Shown piece by piece: positions 3,968 to 62,188 of a stretch of 64,000 nucleotides of DNA. Source of the stretch: Halobacteria archaeon AArc-dxtr1. Its GTDB lineage: Archaea > Halobacteriota > Halobacteria > Halobacteriales > Natrialbaceae. The stretch is taken from NCBI GenBank assembly GCA_025517425.1, contig JAOPJY010000002.1, positions 496,001-560,000 on the forward strand, written 5' to 3'. The notes below the pieces were generated by a model. It was not told where the DNA came from. It made no database searches and worked only from the letters and a program-made list of their open reading frames with translations. Position 1 is the first letter of the stretch. Each line of letters begins with the position of its first letter. The position numbers and the translations under genes are program-made.

Positions 3968-4036
3968 CTTGGGTCTTTTCGTTTGGGGTGACTTCCGGAA
4001 TCCTCTTTGTCCCCACCTGAGTAGCGGGCCGTATCC

Positions 4037-4089
4037 GGGCGATGGGGCCCGCCTGATCCAACCGCCGTCACCGGCTGACGGTCCCTGTT
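4037..4089 (+). ncRNA. Fluoride riboswitch (crcB motif)
   Basis: This leader matches the fluoride aptamer piece by piece. GGGCG (4037-4041) can form the pseudoknot with the CGCC of CCGCC (4049-4053). GGGGCC (4044-4049) pairs with GGTCCC (4080-4085) as P1 with one G-U. GCCG (4064-4067) pairs with CGGC (4072-4075) around a TCAC loop as P3. The conserved TGA joins P3 to P1. I recall the Thermotoga petrophila aptamer as having the same order and spacing. Two fluoride-channel genes follow directly. A competing 6-bp stem, GGCTGA (4073-4078) with TCAGCC (4094-4099), abuts the start codon and could be the expression platform. Confidence 0.85.
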
Positions 4090-4099
4090 TCGATCAGCC

Positions 4100-25642: not shown

Positions 25643-25715
25643 GCCCGGGTGGTGTAGTGGCCCATCATACGACCCTGTCACGGTCGTGACGCGGGTTCAA
25701 ATCCCGCCTCGGGCG
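25643..25715 (+). tRNA. tRNA-Asp (anticodon GTC)
   Basis: A 73-nt cloverleaf. The acceptor stem GCCCGGG pairs with CTCGGGC (one G-U), with discriminator G at 25715. The anticodon loop CTGTCAC presents GTC, read as Asp, and the T-loop is GGTTCAAATCC. No intron and no encoded CCA. The last 22 nt (25694-25715) are duplicated exactly at 25838-25859. A T-run (CTTTTTA) follows the 3' end immediately and may serve as terminator. Confidence 0.96.
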
Positions 25716-25859
25716 CTTTTTACTGACGCCAATTCGTGAGTGAGGAGCGTAGCGACGAACGAGCACGGCGTCAGCAAAACGCCAAACAAGGGATTTGAAG
25801 CAGGGAGTGACACGAGCGAAGCGAGTAGAATGACTGTGGTTCAAATCCCGCCTCGGGCG
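25716..25859 (+). repeat. Structured tRNA-tail element, copy A, ending in a duplicate of the tRNA-Asp 3' end
   Basis: A 144-bp block between the tRNA 3' end and an exact 22-bp copy of that end (25838-25859). Hairpin 1 has 8-bp arms CTGACGCC (25723-25730) and GGCGTCAG (25767-25774), extendable imperfectly towards the tRNA, with a 36-nt loop containing GCGTAGC. Hairpin 2 has 10-bp arms GGGATTTGAA (25790-25799) and TTCAAATCCC (25840-25849), the second being the T-loop part of the duplicate, around CGAGCGAAGCGAG (25813-25825). The same architecture occurs after tRNA-Ser. No protein is encoded. It could be an integration scar, a miniature element or a processed RNA. Confidence 0.8.
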
Positions 25860-26051
25860 TCTTCTTCGATTTCAAATCCGCGAGCGACCGGTCCATCCGA
25901 TCGCGAACACTCGAATCGAAGAGCGGTAGAGTCGGAGTGAACGCTACCAGCCACGCGAACGACGTGGACACGTCCGACTGTGTTTACAGATCGTGAGGAG
26001 CAGATTCCGGGAGAGCCGGATATGGAGGTCTCTGTTCGCCTATTGAGAGTT

Positions 26052-53909: not shown

Positions 53910-53935
53910 AGTCAGCCGATTCTATGTTTGTCCTT

Positions 53936-53947
53936 CTATAAAAAAGC
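53936..53947 (-). promoter_or_regulatory. Thermosome promoter
   Basis: The minus strand reads CTTTTTTATAG, about 32 nt before the ATG at 53909, a strong haloarchaeal TATA box. The gap 53910-54260 also contains GTATATATAC (54084-54093), a palindromic TATA-like element, and TTTTATTT (54203-54210), a candidate promoter for the DUF4129 gene. No gene is visible in this gap. Confidence 0.55.
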
Positions 53948-54260
53948 TTCTACTCAGTGGAGAGCGCGGGTGTCCCACGTCTCCGACAGCCCAGGAGAAG
54001 ATCGCCGTAGGGCCAACTGGTACGCGCAGATCCGTGTGAACTGCTATCGCACAGTCGGTCCGATCTGTCGGTCCATCTTCGACCGTATATATACCACAGT
54101 GAGACAGCGCCAACCCAAGAAACGGGAGGTTGCGCTACCGGTGTGTTTGCCGGACGTTGGCCGGATGCAACACCCCTCACAAGAGGACAGCGGAGCGAGG
54201 AGTTTTATTTCCGGGGACTGTGGATACCTAGCTGAACGACAGTTCGGAGCAGTAACTGGA

Positions 54261-56696
54261 ATGCGAGAGACAGCAGACCGAAACCGCGAGGGGACGGGTG
54301 GGCCGGACTGGGGACAGTTCACACTGGTTGTGCTGTCGGTTCTCATTCTTGCGTTAGCAGCGGTTGCGGCACCGACGCTGGGGGGTATTGGCCCGGGGAG
54401 CAGCGGGGTTAGCCCTGGTGATGGCGCCGATGGTGAGGAACCCGGAGACGGGCATCCAGACGCAGGTAACGAGTCGGAGCACGGCGATCCGGGCGACCAG
54501 AGTAGAGACGATGTCCCATCAGATGGCGCTCCCGCCGATGGCGGACCAGACGACGGAGATGTCGATAGCGGAGATCCGAACGGCGGAGATCAGGCTAACG
54601 GAGACGTAGACGGCGGTGACGAGCAGCTAGGTGACGGTGATGATCACGACGGCGACCCAGCTGATGGTGTCGAGAACGGTGGAGACGACCACGACGTCGG
54701 AGATGGAGACGGTGGCGCTGGAGACGAGGATGGGGACGGGGATGGCAGTGATGGCGACGAGGACGGGATCGGAGATGGCACCGGTGAGGATGGCAGTGAC
54801 GGGGACGAGGATGGGATCGGAGACGGTCAGAATGGCGACGGCGACGGCAGTGATCCGGGCGACGGTGAGGATGGTGACTCCGATGACAGCGACACGGGAG
54901 ACGGTGATGGTGGCGACGGTAATGATGGTGAGGACGAAGAAAGCGGTGACGGTCAAGGCAGCGATGACGGAGACAGCGATGGTGGGGATGGCGGTGACGG
55001 TGATGAGGGAGATGGTGTGGACGGTGGTGACGACGATGAGAGTGAGGTCGGCGATGGTGGAGAGAATGGAGATGGCGACGGAGATGACAGCGATGGTGGA
55101 GACGACGAAAACGGCGAGGAGAACGGAGACGATGCAGACAGCGGTCCCGAGTACGACGTCGCGTTCGACGACCCGCCGAGCCCAGGCACGGAGGTCACGG
55201 CGACGGTTACCGAAGACGACGAGCCACTCGAGGGAGCATCGGTCGCGTTCGACGGCGAGCCGATCGGAACGACCGATTCCGATGGAACGGTCACCGGAAC
55301 GGTTCCGTACACGACGGAACTTGAGGTAACGATCGATCCGAGCGCGGCGACTGAGACGGCAGTGGCCAGTGGCGGGACCGACGGTGAGCAACTCGACGCG
55401 AAGTCACAGCTCGTTGCTGATCCGGGAACCGCCTCCGAAAACGAGACGCGAACGACCGTCGAGTTGAATCCCGAGACGGCCGTCGAAATCGACGAACCGA
55501 TCCTTCCCGAGATGGATACCACGGTTTCGGCGACAGTCGACGGGAATCCGATCCCAAACGGAACGGTGCTGGTCGACGGAGACGAGATCGCCGTCACTAA
55601 CGACGAGGGCACCGCATCGTTCACCGTCCCCGAGAGCGAGGGGAACGTGACCGTTGCGGTCGAACGCGGCGAGATTCGCGTCGAGCGGGACGTCGAAGTT
55701 CGGATGCTCGACGTCGAGGTCGAAACGATCCTACCGCTTCCCGGCCGAACGGTCGACGTCGCCGTTACGGACGGCGTCGACCCGGTCGAGAACGCGACGG
55801 TACTCGTCGACGGAGAGCCCGTCGAGACGACAGAAAACGGGACGGCGACCGTCGGGTTGCCGGTCGCCGACGGGGCGACGATCAGCGCGGCGTTAGCCGG
55901 GGCCGAGGCGGAGACGACCCTCGACGGCCTGTATCGGAACGCTGCACTCGTGCTCGGCGGGGCGGCCGTCCTCGTGGCGGTGACGGGTTGGGTGCTCGTC
56001 CGGCGCGTCGGGCTCTCGAGAGCGGGGCTATGGTCGGCTCCGGGCGCAGTCCTCGCGCGGCTGCGTGCACTCCTCTCGGCGCTCGGGCGGCGAGCAGTCG
56101 ACGGCATCGTCCGGCTCGCAGCGCTGCTCGATCGCCTGGGCGATCGACTGGCCGAGCGGGCCCGTTGGGTCGCGCTCGCGATCCGGCGGGCCGGGCGATG
56201 GCTCGCCGCGCTGCCGTGGCGGCTCCGGGAGACCGGGCTCGCCGGTCTGGCAGCGCTCGACCCCCGACGGCTGGTCCGGGCGGTCGTCGCGGCGATCCGG
56301 TCGCTGCTCCGGTCCGTCCGCTTCCGAGGAAAGCGGGGTGTCGGATCGAAATCGGGAAGCGCGGGTACGGCCGGCGAGGACACAGCGGGGGCGGTCACCC
56401 AGACGCTCCGGGAGCTGTGGATCGAGTTCGTCAGAGTCGTCCGCCCACCGGGGGTGCGAACGAAGACGCCGGGCGAGATCGGCCGGTACGCAGTCGAGAA
56501 CGGAGTTCCCGAGCGAGCGGTCGAAACCGTCGTGGAGACGTTTCGCGACGCCGAGTACGGGAACGTGGCCCCCTCATCCGATCGGCTCGATCGGGTGGCG
56601 GTCGCGGTCCGGTCGATCAGTGCCGATGCCGAGTCCGGGACGGCAGAAACTGACGCAGCGAACGGCTCCGGTACCGACGGGAGGGAGGAGCCGTGA
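54261..56696 (+). CDS. DUF4129-domain membrane protein with a long Asp/Gly repeat region
   Basis: 811 aa. A first TM helix (LVVLSVLILALAAVAAPTL, about residue 20) precedes about 240 residues almost entirely of Asp, Gly, Glu, Asn and Ser (54420-55145), probably outside the cell. Then come two or three Ig-like domains (e.g. VTEDDEPLEGASVAFDGEP) and a second TM (ALVLGGAAVLVAVTGWVLV, about residue 570). An Arg-rich cytoplasmic helical region and the DUF4129 domain (TPGEIGRYAVENGVPERAVE) complete it. It starts the MoxR-DUF58-type module. The ATG at 54261 precedes the TM directly; an earlier frame of 111 codons is not believed. Confidence 0.82.
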   Translation: MRETADRNREGTGGPDWGQFTLVVLSVLILALAAVAAPTLGGIGPGSSGVSPGDGADGEEPGDGHPDAGNESEHGDPGDQSRDDVPSDGAPADGGPDDGDVDSGDPNGGDQANGDVDGGDEQLGDGDDHDGDPADGVENGGDDHDVGDGDGGAGDEDGDGDGSDGDEDGIGDGTGEDGSDGDEDGIGDGQNGDGDGSDPGDGEDGDSDDSDTGDGDGGDGNDGEDEESGDGQGSDDGDSDGGDGGDGDEGDGVDGGDDDESEVGDGGENGDGDGDDSDGGDDENGEENGDDADSGPEYDVAFDDPPSPGTEVTATVTEDDEPLEGASVAFDGEPIGTTDSDGTVTGTVPYTTELEVTIDPSAATETAVASGGTDGEQLDAKSQLVADPGTASENETRTTVELNPETAVEIDEPILPEMDTTVSATVDGNPIPNGTVLVDGDEIAVTNDEGTASFTVPESEGNVTVAVERGEIRVERDVEVRMLDVEVETILPLPGRTVDVAVTDGVDPVENATVLVDGEPVETTENGTATVGLPVADGATISAALAGAEAETTLDGLYRNAALVLGGAAVLVAVTGWVLVRRVGLSRAGLWSAPGAVLARLRALLSALGRRAVDGIVRLAALLDRLGDRLAERARWVALAIRRAGRWLAALPWRLRETGLAGLAALDPRRLVRAVVAAIRSLLRSVRFRGKRGVGSKSGSAGTAGEDTAGAVTQTLRELWIEFVRVVRPPGVRTKTPGEIGRYAVENGVPERAVETVVETFRDAEYGNVAPSSDRLDRVAVAVRSISADAESGTAETDAANGSGTDGREEP
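54420..55145 (+). repeat. Low-complexity GAY-GGN repeat tract inside the DUF4129 gene
   Basis: An irregular tandem of GAT/GAC and GGA/GGT codons with occasional GAG and AGC, encoding Asp/Gly-rich protein. Third positions vary less towards GC than in the neighbours, so the tract looks like repeat expansion rather than codon-selected sequence. The antisense frame is also open (54627-55391) but has Val/Ile-Thr monotony and is not taken as a gene. Confidence 0.75.
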
Positions 56697-60803: not shown

Positions 60804-61772
60804 TTATGGGCGCACCGCCGGGACCTCGACGCGGTCTATCACGTCGGCGACGACGTCCGCTCCGTCGACGCCCGCGATCCTCGCGTCGGTCGTCAGGACG
60901 AGCCGGTGTTGCATGATCGGTTCAGCGATGCGCTTTACATCGTCCGGGGCGACGTACGCTCGACCGGAAATCACCGCGCGGGCGCGGGCTGCCTCGTAGT
61001 AGCGCTGGATACCGCGCGGGGAGACGCCGATTTCGACTCGGTCGTCGGTCCGGGTCTCTCGGGCCAGCTTGACGAGGTACTCCCGGAGGTCGGGTTCCAT
61101 CGAGACGCCCTCTGGAACCTGCTGGAGCGCACGGACGCCCTCCGTATCGAGTACCGAACCGACCGACGGCATCTTCGTCTCACGCCGGCTGCGCCGCTCG
61201 ATCAGTTCGAGTTCACCCGCCAGTTCCGGGTAGCCGATCGAGGATTTGACCATGAAGCGGTCGCGCTGGGCTTCCGGCAGCTCGAAGGTCCCCTCCTGTT
61301 CGACGGGGTTCTGGGTCGCGATCACCAGAAACGGGTCGGGGAGGTCACGCGTCGTCCCGTCGACGGTCACCTGTCCCTCGTCCATCGCCTCTAACAGCGC
61401 CGCCTGTGTCTTCGGCGGCGCGCGGTTGATCTCGTCGGCGAGCACGACGTTCGCGAACACCGGTCCCTCGGTGAATTCGAACTCGCCGGTCCCCTCGTTG
61501 AACACGTGCGAACCCGTGATATCACCCGGCAGGAGATCCGGTGTGAACTGAATCCGGTTGAAGTCGAGCCCGAGCGCCTGCGAGAGCGTCAGTGCGGTCA
61601 GCGTCTTCCCGGTTCCGGGGACATCCTCCAAGAGGACGTGGCCGCGTGCCAACACCGCCGTGAGCACGTGCTCTAAGAACCCCCGATCCGTGATGACGGC
61701 CTCGCCGACCCGCGAGAGGACGGCGTCACAGCGCTCGCTCGCCGACGCGACCGGGCGGTCGTCGCGTTCCAT
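60804..61772 (-). CDS. MoxR-family AAA ATPase
   Basis: 322 aa AAA+ chaperone-like ATPase. Walker A VPGTGKT (about residue 45), Walker B LADEINRAPP, sensor 1 VIATQNPVEQEG and sensor 2 in the C-terminal lid. MoxR proteins act with DUF58/VWA partners in assembly or metal insertion of other complexes. It is convergent with the four-gene operon (40 nt gap) and has a TATA-like TATTTTG about 33 nt before its ATG. Confidence 0.93.
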   Translation of the reverse strand: MERDDRPVASASERCDAVLSRVGEAVITDRGFLEHVLTAVLARGHVLLEDVPGTGKTLTALTLSQALGLDFNRIQFTPDLLPGDITGSHVFNEGTGEFEFTEGPVFANVVLADEINRAPPKTQAALLEAMDEGQVTVDGTTRDLPDPFLVIATQNPVEQEGTFELPEAQRDRFMVKSSIGYPELAGELELIERRSRRETKMPSVGSVLDTEGVRALQQVPEGVSMEPDLREYLVKLARETRTDDRVEIGVSPRGIQRYYEAARARAVISGRAYVAPDDVKRIAEPIMQHRLVLTTDARIAGVDGADVVADVIDRVEVPAVRP

Positions 61773-61922
61773 CGTGGCAGACTTTCGTCCGAAACGGTAT
61801 CAAAATACTGGCGCTAAGTAAGGTCGTCTCGACGAGTCGCGACACTGCGCGTTCGCACCGCTACGCGGCGTTCACCGGGTTGTAACGACAAAATGCGTCA
61901 CGGTTTCGTCGTTCGGTAACCC

Positions 61923-61954
61923 GCGATTCTCGCTCTCTGTTCGCTCCGAATCGC
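61923..61954. repeat. Palindrome beyond tRNA-tail element B
   Basis: GCGATTC (61923-61929) and GAATCGC (61948-61954) form a 7-bp inverted repeat with inner TCGCTC/GAGCGA-like pairing possibilities. It lies just past the duplicated tRNA-Ser end. A further GC-GTA-GC mini-hairpin lies at 61857-61868. The whole gap 61773-62106 contains no gene. Confidence 0.5.
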
Positions 61955-61958
61955 GCAA

Positions 61959-62106
61959 CGCCAGGACAGGGATTTGAACTACGGCTGAGAACCTGCTCGC
62001 TTCGCTCGCAGAACCTCAGTCTAATTCAAATCCCGCTTCTTGCGTTCTTCGAGTTCGGATGACTCGCGCCGCTACGCGTCGCTCGTTGATAGTGAACTCG
62101 AAGAAG
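61959..62106 (-). repeat. Structured tRNA-tail element, copy B, ending in a duplicate of the tRNA-Ser 3' end
   Basis: Same design as copy A (25716-25859), read from the tRNA on the minus strand. Hairpin 1 has 12-bp arms TTCTTCGAGTTC (62045-62056) and GAACTCGAAGAA (62094-62105), with a 37-nt loop containing GCGTAGC. Hairpin 2 has 10-bp arms (62025-62034 and 61969-61978) around CGAGCGAAGCGAG (61996-62008). It ends in an exact 21-bp copy (61959-61979) of the tRNA 3' end (62107-62127). Length 148 bp against 144 in copy A. Sequences of hairpin 1 arms differ between copies; the architecture and loop motifs do not. Confidence 0.8.
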
Positions 62107-62188
62107 CGCCAGGACAGGGATTTGAACCCTGAATCCCGAAAGGGAACACGCTTTCCAGGCGTGCGCCTTACCGTTCGGCCATCCTGGC
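62107..62188 (-). tRNA. tRNA-Ser (anticodon GGA)
   Basis: An 82-nt class II tRNA. Acceptor GCCAGGA/TCCTGGC with discriminator G, anticodon loop CTGGAAA giving GGA, a long variable arm, and the T-loop GGTTCAAATCC. No intron, no encoded CCA. Its last 21 nt are repeated at 61959-61979. The TATA-like GTTTAAC on the + strand (GTTAAAC on the minus) at 62214-62220 is 26-32 nt upstream. Confidence 0.96.

Follow-up and report, generated by a model that had tools for sequence, protein, structure and literature searches.

Two-hairpin units with an exact copy of the tRNA 3' end follow many tRNA genes of haloarchaea

A unit of two hairpins that carries an exact copy of the 3' end of its own tRNA follows about half of haloarchaeal tRNA genes, often in shuffled tandem arrays, and occurs in nearly every haloarchaeon examined. 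Whole units and half-units (hairpin 1, HP1, and hairpin 2, HP2) vary between genomes and are gained or lost at joints formed by T-loop/T-stem sequences of either orientation, and the copy proximal to the tRNA is the freshest. From the comparison of these arrays we tentatively favour, at slightly less than an even chance, the reading that each tail represents a single unit in a recombination array anchored on a tRNA, which may use the T-loop as its site and may work like cassette or att systems.

The window, the whole 64-kb stretch of DNA that was analysed, contains only two tRNA genes, Asp(GTC) and Ser(GGA), according to ARAGORN and Rfam, in agreement with an earlier note on this DNA. Two covariance models were used, R1 for the whole tail and R2 for HP2 alone. 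The features of the two loci are as follows.

62106-62188, minus strand: tRNA-Ser(GGA) (ARAGORN, Rfam)
62107-62127, minus strand: 3' end of tRNA-Ser that is repeated in its own tail; its T-loop is the proposed recombination site
61959-62105, minus strand: whole Ser tail
62045-62105, minus strand: HP1 of the Ser tail, beginning at the tRNA end (sequence, DNA fold, family covariation)
61969-62034, minus strand: HP2 of the Ser tail, an inverted T-loop/T-stem copy, a structured centre and a direct copy (model R2, DNA fold)
61959-61979, minus strand: 21-nt self-copy of the tRNA-Ser 3' end, GTTCAAATCCCTGTCCTGGCG (exact repeat)
61922-61955, minus strand: second HP1-like hairpin after the Ser copy, with perfect 8-bp arms
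25643-25716, plus strand: tRNA-Asp(GTC) (ARAGORN, Rfam)
25723-25774, plus strand: HP1 of the Asp tail, arms CTGACGCC/GGCGTCAG, 36-nt loop (sequence)
25790-25849, plus strand: HP2 of the Asp tail (model R2, 51.6 bits, E 6e-12)
25838-25859, plus strand: 22-nt self-copy of the tRNA-Asp 3' end (exact repeat)
25863-25922, plus strand: second HP1-like hairpin after the Asp copy, with perfect 9-bp arms (sequence)

The earlier note had described the Ser tail as HP1, HP2 and a copy of the own tRNA end, and its coordinates, arms and spacing were confirmed in the sequence. The Asp tail has the same architecture, with a T-loop-to-T-loop distance of 144 bp against 148 bp for Ser, HP1 loops of 36 and 37 nt, and self-copies of 22 and 21 nt. 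The perfect 12-bp arms of the Ser HP1 (62045-62056/62094-62105) enclose its 37-nt loop, and its DNA fold gave z = -3.1. One arm of the Ser HP2, GGGATTTGAA (62025-62034), is the inverted copy of the T-loop/T-stem, the other, TTCAAATCCC (61969-61978), is the direct copy, and the centre is CGAGCGAAGCGAG, which is present exactly twice in the window, once per tRNA tail. This HP2 scored 58.5 bits (E 8e-14) against R2, with DNA fold z values of -4.1 and -4.9, one per strand. That both tails share the same 10-bp HP2 arms and centre, as the earlier note had it, is correct, and the arms are identical because both tRNAs have the T-loop/T-stem TTCAAATCCC. In addition to what had been noted, a further hairpin follows the second tRNA-end copy in both tails, with arms CGCGATTC/GAATCGCG (61922-61929/61948-61955) behind Ser and TCTTCGATT/AATCGAAGA (25863-25871/25914-25922) behind Asp. 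The Ser one is either an older unit or the end of the array; other arrays are arranged likewise.

The tails are widespread within the host genome, of which the stretches around tRNAs were analysed. A survey of all tRNAs called by the Rfam model found a downstream copy of the own 3' end in 22 of the 41, at a distance of about 62-222 nt. Tails also stand behind Trp (with intron) and Pro CGG, which the model did not find, so that at least 24 tRNA genes carry them. A DNA search with the window tail likewise gave more copies behind other tRNAs of the host. In three congeners, tails follow 22/41, 17/41 and 26/43 tRNAs, with a patchy distribution by isoacceptor. No tail was seen in any of the congeners G000, G002 and G003 behind Ala(GGC), Asn, Cys, Gln, Leu(CAG), Leu(GAG), Pro(GGG), Ser(GCT) or Tyr.

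The earlier note had expected that a covariance model of the tail would hit immediately 3' of tRNAs in many haloarchaea, and this is what we found. In the host genome R1 has 18 matches, every one of them immediately behind a tRNA or within its array, and across the phylum R1 matched 22 of 24 haloarchaea and one of 124 other genomes (that one at E 0.007). R2 matched 143 of 145 haloarchaeal genomes across the class, covering 57 of 58 genera with 1-32 sites per genome. The two haloarchaeal genomes without any R2 match are G135 and G033, one of which has tail-bearing congeners; their low counts at first look suggest an unusual base composition. The exact HP2 pattern was present in at least 120 stretches, haloarchaeal except for one chance match in a Chloroflexi bin. 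Among the matches listed, a tRNA stands just upstream in 115 of 128 occurrences of the pattern, and the remaining ones are mostly at locus edges or behind tRNAs missed by ARAGORN.

In the collected loci, of which the non-host ones were chosen for carrying the motif, a self-copy follows 139 of 175 tRNAs. These are not chance similarities, because the reversed tRNA end gave an equal score downstream only once among 168 tRNAs. The duplicated part extends from the T-loop to the tRNA 3' end and was found in tRNAs of 17 amino acids. As the earlier note had anticipated, each copy matches its local tRNA end: copies are nearer to the tRNA of their own species than to the same isoacceptor of other species by 415:2 in 421 comparisons, which are non-independent and use copies picked by similarity to the own tRNA. 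Some copies have an extra base in the T-loop (GTTCAATATCC, GTTCACAATCC), which is reminiscent of the unpaired bases of integron attC sites. This one-base insertion recurs in L062, L093, L109, L110, L152 and other loci, and one-base deletions in the inverted arm were seen at the spot matching it.

HP1 starts at the first base after the tRNA or close to it. Its short form has the motif C-GA-RC-loop-GY-GA-G, in which the R/Y pair is A-T 62 times, G-C 60, G-T 4 and A-C 2. HP2 has at least three types of centre and arms that are one inverted and one direct copy of the tRNA T-loop/T-stem; its 5' arm reads antisense to the tRNA at positions about 54-63 and covaries with the local tRNA, a match that fades further out. 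In 33 aligned tails we counted 93 double-changed cells, compared with 30 in shuffled and 8-19 in slid controls, and the compensatory changes that had been predicted for the arms of HP1 are present in this family covariation. Within one genome, different tRNAs (Ser/Phe) can have almost the same HP2 centre with arms matching each local tRNA, so that the centres either pass from one tRNA to another or undergo conversion.

The dynamics of the arrays were followed at one orthologous tRNA-Lys locus, sought in 52 genomes of one genus. The readable arrays hold 0-6 units, in which HP1, of six classes, and HP2, of five, are combined in many ways. The change from one combination to another falls at the inverted T-loop, with a median of 6 nt of shared sequence on its left and 0 nt on its right. 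Arg-type, that is foreign, acceptor ends occur in 6 of 140 cases within Lys arrays, compared with 0.1% expected. The first copy is better than the second by 38:6 (p 1e-6), and copy quality drops with distance from the tRNA. Identical tandem units were found in L070 and L295, and some tail-less orthologues retain HP1; the flanks of the tail-less loci are too diverged for a clean junction to be read. The inserts are 62-271 bp and thus too short to hold genes.

The pattern in the two window tails had been taken to fit a module that copies or captures the end of whichever tRNA it follows. This stands as a description of the pattern. As a mechanism, active copying or capture seems less likely than recombination at the T-loop, which the arrays, the mosaic units and the breakpoints at direct and inverted T-loops suggest. 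A unit would run from the tRNA T-loop through the acceptor end, HP1, the inverted T-loop copy and the HP2 core to the next direct T-loop copy. New units may enter by recombination inside the T-loop; the incoming unit would supply a matching acceptor end and rebuild an intact tRNA, and the old tRNA end, displaced downstream, would become the copy. Through HP2, two T-loop sites may pair with each other when the DNA is single-stranded or extruded and so form a double-stranded att-like site, comparable to integron attC or CTXphi attP, and the joining could be carried out by a tyrosine recombinase, possibly a XerA-like one found throughout haloarchaea, or by recombination of the host repair machinery.

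Several results support the recombination-array reading: the duplications from the T-loop to the 3' end, the fidelity of copies to their own tRNA and their decay with distance, the variable number of units, their mosaic make-up with a switch at the inverted T-loop, the identical tandem units and the patchiness among congeners, the strong covariation of the tails, the mismatch symmetry of HP2, the HP2 cores shared by several tRNAs, and the foreign acceptor ends. It is also supported by a XerA-like tyrosine recombinase of about 350-370 aa (L298:430-1491; G000:C1:789039-790052), which is single-copy in 15/15 haloarchaea and present in 0/85 other genomes (E 1e-30). The best NCBIfam model for this protein is 'site-specific tyrosine recombinase/integron integrase', with a score below the cut-off. 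On the other hand, the gene is present even in one genome without a detected tail, which weakens the case and leaves the protein as only a candidate. The number of integrases (PF00589) does not track the number of arrays either; their counts show no difference between array-rich and array-poor genomes, and integrase load as a driver was rejected. Moreover, HP2 cores were never inverted (138 standard and 0 inverted), although free recombination between inverted sites would flip them, and free flipping of HP2 was rejected accordingly. Neither a circular form nor a gain or loss between strains was seen. A wider proposal is more doubtful: T-loop anchors and two-hairpin, tRNA-specific cassettes might form a class-wide system, exchanged within and between cells by the chromosomal XerA-like recombinase on folded DNA; archaea would then have their own equivalent of integrons, with its root in tRNA genes.

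The T-loop copies are the very sequences that units share, so that breakpoints there may mean little, and homologous or microhomology recombination of the ordinary kind could be enough. The arrays would then descend passively from an att-like insertion that took place long ago at tRNA 3' ends, their repeats growing, shrinking and exchanging by such recombination, with hairpins that slow decay or help slippage and no dedicated enzyme now. The identical tandem units and the lack of a link with integrase number agree with this, as do breakpoints in the sole sequence common to units. It leaves aside that the covarying two-hairpin anatomy and the tRNA-matched inverted arm are kept class-wide, which requires selection or a copying process, and that HP2 cores are found at different tRNAs of one genome. 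We consider this passive origin unlikely, if worth keeping in view.

The position directly 3' of tRNAs, the frequent T-run at the start and the strong covariation would also suit a structured RNA trailer, co-transcribed with the tRNA, which would offer a decoy tRNA end and so play a part in termination, in processing by RNase Z or in regulation. The mismatches in the stems speak against it. Non-Watson-Crick pairs in the outer arms of HP2 are G-T 36 times and A-C 45 times, so that G-U is not favoured in the transcribed strand as in structured RNA, whereas the same tRNAs have 67 G-T and 6 A-C in T-stems, and 49 and 16 in acceptor stems (p 2e-10 and 2e-4 for HP2 against the two). As the mismatches of its arms are symmetric, unlike those of tRNA stems, HP2 pairing is apparently kept at the DNA level. 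HP1 has 22 G-T and 12 A-C (p 0.001 against the T-stem, 0.35 against the acceptor stem), a trend that is weaker evidence for the recombination array than that of HP2. These counts speak firmly against selection on a transcript in the case of HP2, and with less force in that of HP1. Furthermore, the tails are patchy among orthologous tRNAs, distal copies decay, and no Rfam family matches the tails above its gathering score. An RNA trailer therefore seems to us an improbable account.

Casposons target tRNA 3' ends, and the exact duplication of about 22 nt at many different tRNAs could come from a MITE-like non-autonomous transposon, inserted there with a target-site duplication of about 22 bp by staggered cleavage, as by casposase/Cas1 integrases. 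Such an origin leaves unexplained the inverted arm matching each tRNA, the further HP1 after a copy with its A-HP2-A structure, the shuffling of HP1 and HP2, and the absence outside tRNA sites; unit alignments judged by eye have no terminal inverted repeats and no matching ends inside the duplication. We give it a slim chance. Casposons and CRISPR (Cas1) do share direct target repeats separated by inserts and freshest near the anchor, but the haloarchaeal units carry an inverted target copy and have no inverted repeats at their termini. The repeats of REP/BIME and MITE families are also short, palindromic, gene-less and intergenic, but are not tied to tRNA 3' ends or matched to the tRNA.

Haloarchaeal elements are known to integrate at tRNA 3' ends, as described in parts of the literature (PMC8371274, PMC3119063), but that the tails are remnants of such integrase-bearing proviruses or plasmids with the body lost is very improbable, since no plasmid, phage or IMG/VR contig searched contains HP2, the anatomy is conserved in almost every genome of the class set, and a real integrated element behind tRNA-Val(CAC) (L087) has ends without HP1/HP2 and pushed the existing tail away. 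This element is about 2.8 kb and has an ORC/CDC6-like ATPase. Searches of PLSDB, INPHARED and IMG/VR gave no HP2 match, the sole weak phage match being from Streptomyces (E 0.9), and units mobile on viruses or plasmids were rejected. Classic tRNA-targeting elements (T-loop/3'-end attB) resemble the arrays in that a duplicated tRNA 3' part rebuilds the tRNA, and a duplicated tRNA 3' end flanks the units as well; unlike them, the haloarchaeal units are about 100-150 bp without coding capacity and hence no encoded integrase, stand at many tRNAs per genome and have two conserved hairpins.

The closest likeness of the recombination array is to integron cassette arrays (attI/attC, IntI), which share an anchor site, decay away from it, foldable inverted-arm sites and a mosaic order between strains; structure conserved over sequence at such sites is found here in the HP2 arms and their covariation. 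That the first copy is fresher than the second agrees, if indirectly, with the insertion at the anchor that integrons have. The haloarchaeal anchor differs in being a tRNA T-loop, each array bears the end of its own tRNA, the units are essentially without genes except in one array (L118), and none of the ORFs beside the window's Ser tail is an integrase gene. CTXphi attP(+) and other Xer-exploiting elements similarly have two inverted core sites, separated by about 30-60 bp, with the potential to form a double-stranded att site by folding, but the haloarchaeal units are on no virus or plasmid searched, and they have the tRNA T-loop for a core instead of dif. The idea that arrays normally carry cargo cassettes was rejected, HP2 sites off tRNAs being nearly absent in 776 kb of loci. 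L209 has two HP2 sites 1 kb apart, each belonging to a different tRNA. The array L118, about 3.4 kb behind tRNA-Thr(TGT), has HicAB-like (by eye) and winged-helix/PIN toxin-antitoxin-like genes between HP2 sites, and is possibly a cargo-bearing array, a single odd case.

Since the integrase and cargo that define integrons, the integrase of classic elements and the terminal repeats of MITEs are lacking, the tails appear to be a new kind of unit that may work like an att or cassette array. The literature searched, which lay outside subscription journals and preprints, contains no description of them; what it yielded concerns integration scars, partial tRNAs of Haloquadratum, CRISPR or unrelated matter. 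The Haloquadratum 'partial tRNA' repeats were interpreted as prophage scars (PMC3119063), and the passages searched in a review of archaeal tyrosine recombinases give tRNA 3' ends as integration sites and mention no such arrays (PMC8371274). Structured, fast-changing DNA thus lies behind a large share of tRNA genes in nearly all haloarchaea sampled, culturable genera included. It affects tRNA annotation, in which partial tRNA ends turn up, and has consequences for the view that 'partial tRNA duplications' are prophage scars. If recombination at the T-loop is active, it would represent a new archaeal site-specific recombination system, would be relevant to the question why integration is so frequent at tRNA genes, and would give haloarchaeal genetics a naturally occurring collection of tRNA-specific att sites.

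Finally, the window has other features apart from the tails. A fluoride riboswitch match is at 4029-4094 on the plus strand (35.4 bits, compared with the Rfam gathering score of 34), and a long ORF at 53928-56696 has an extreme Asp/Gly-rich acidic stretch, with a MoxR-type ATPase gene (60804-61772) in the same stretch.
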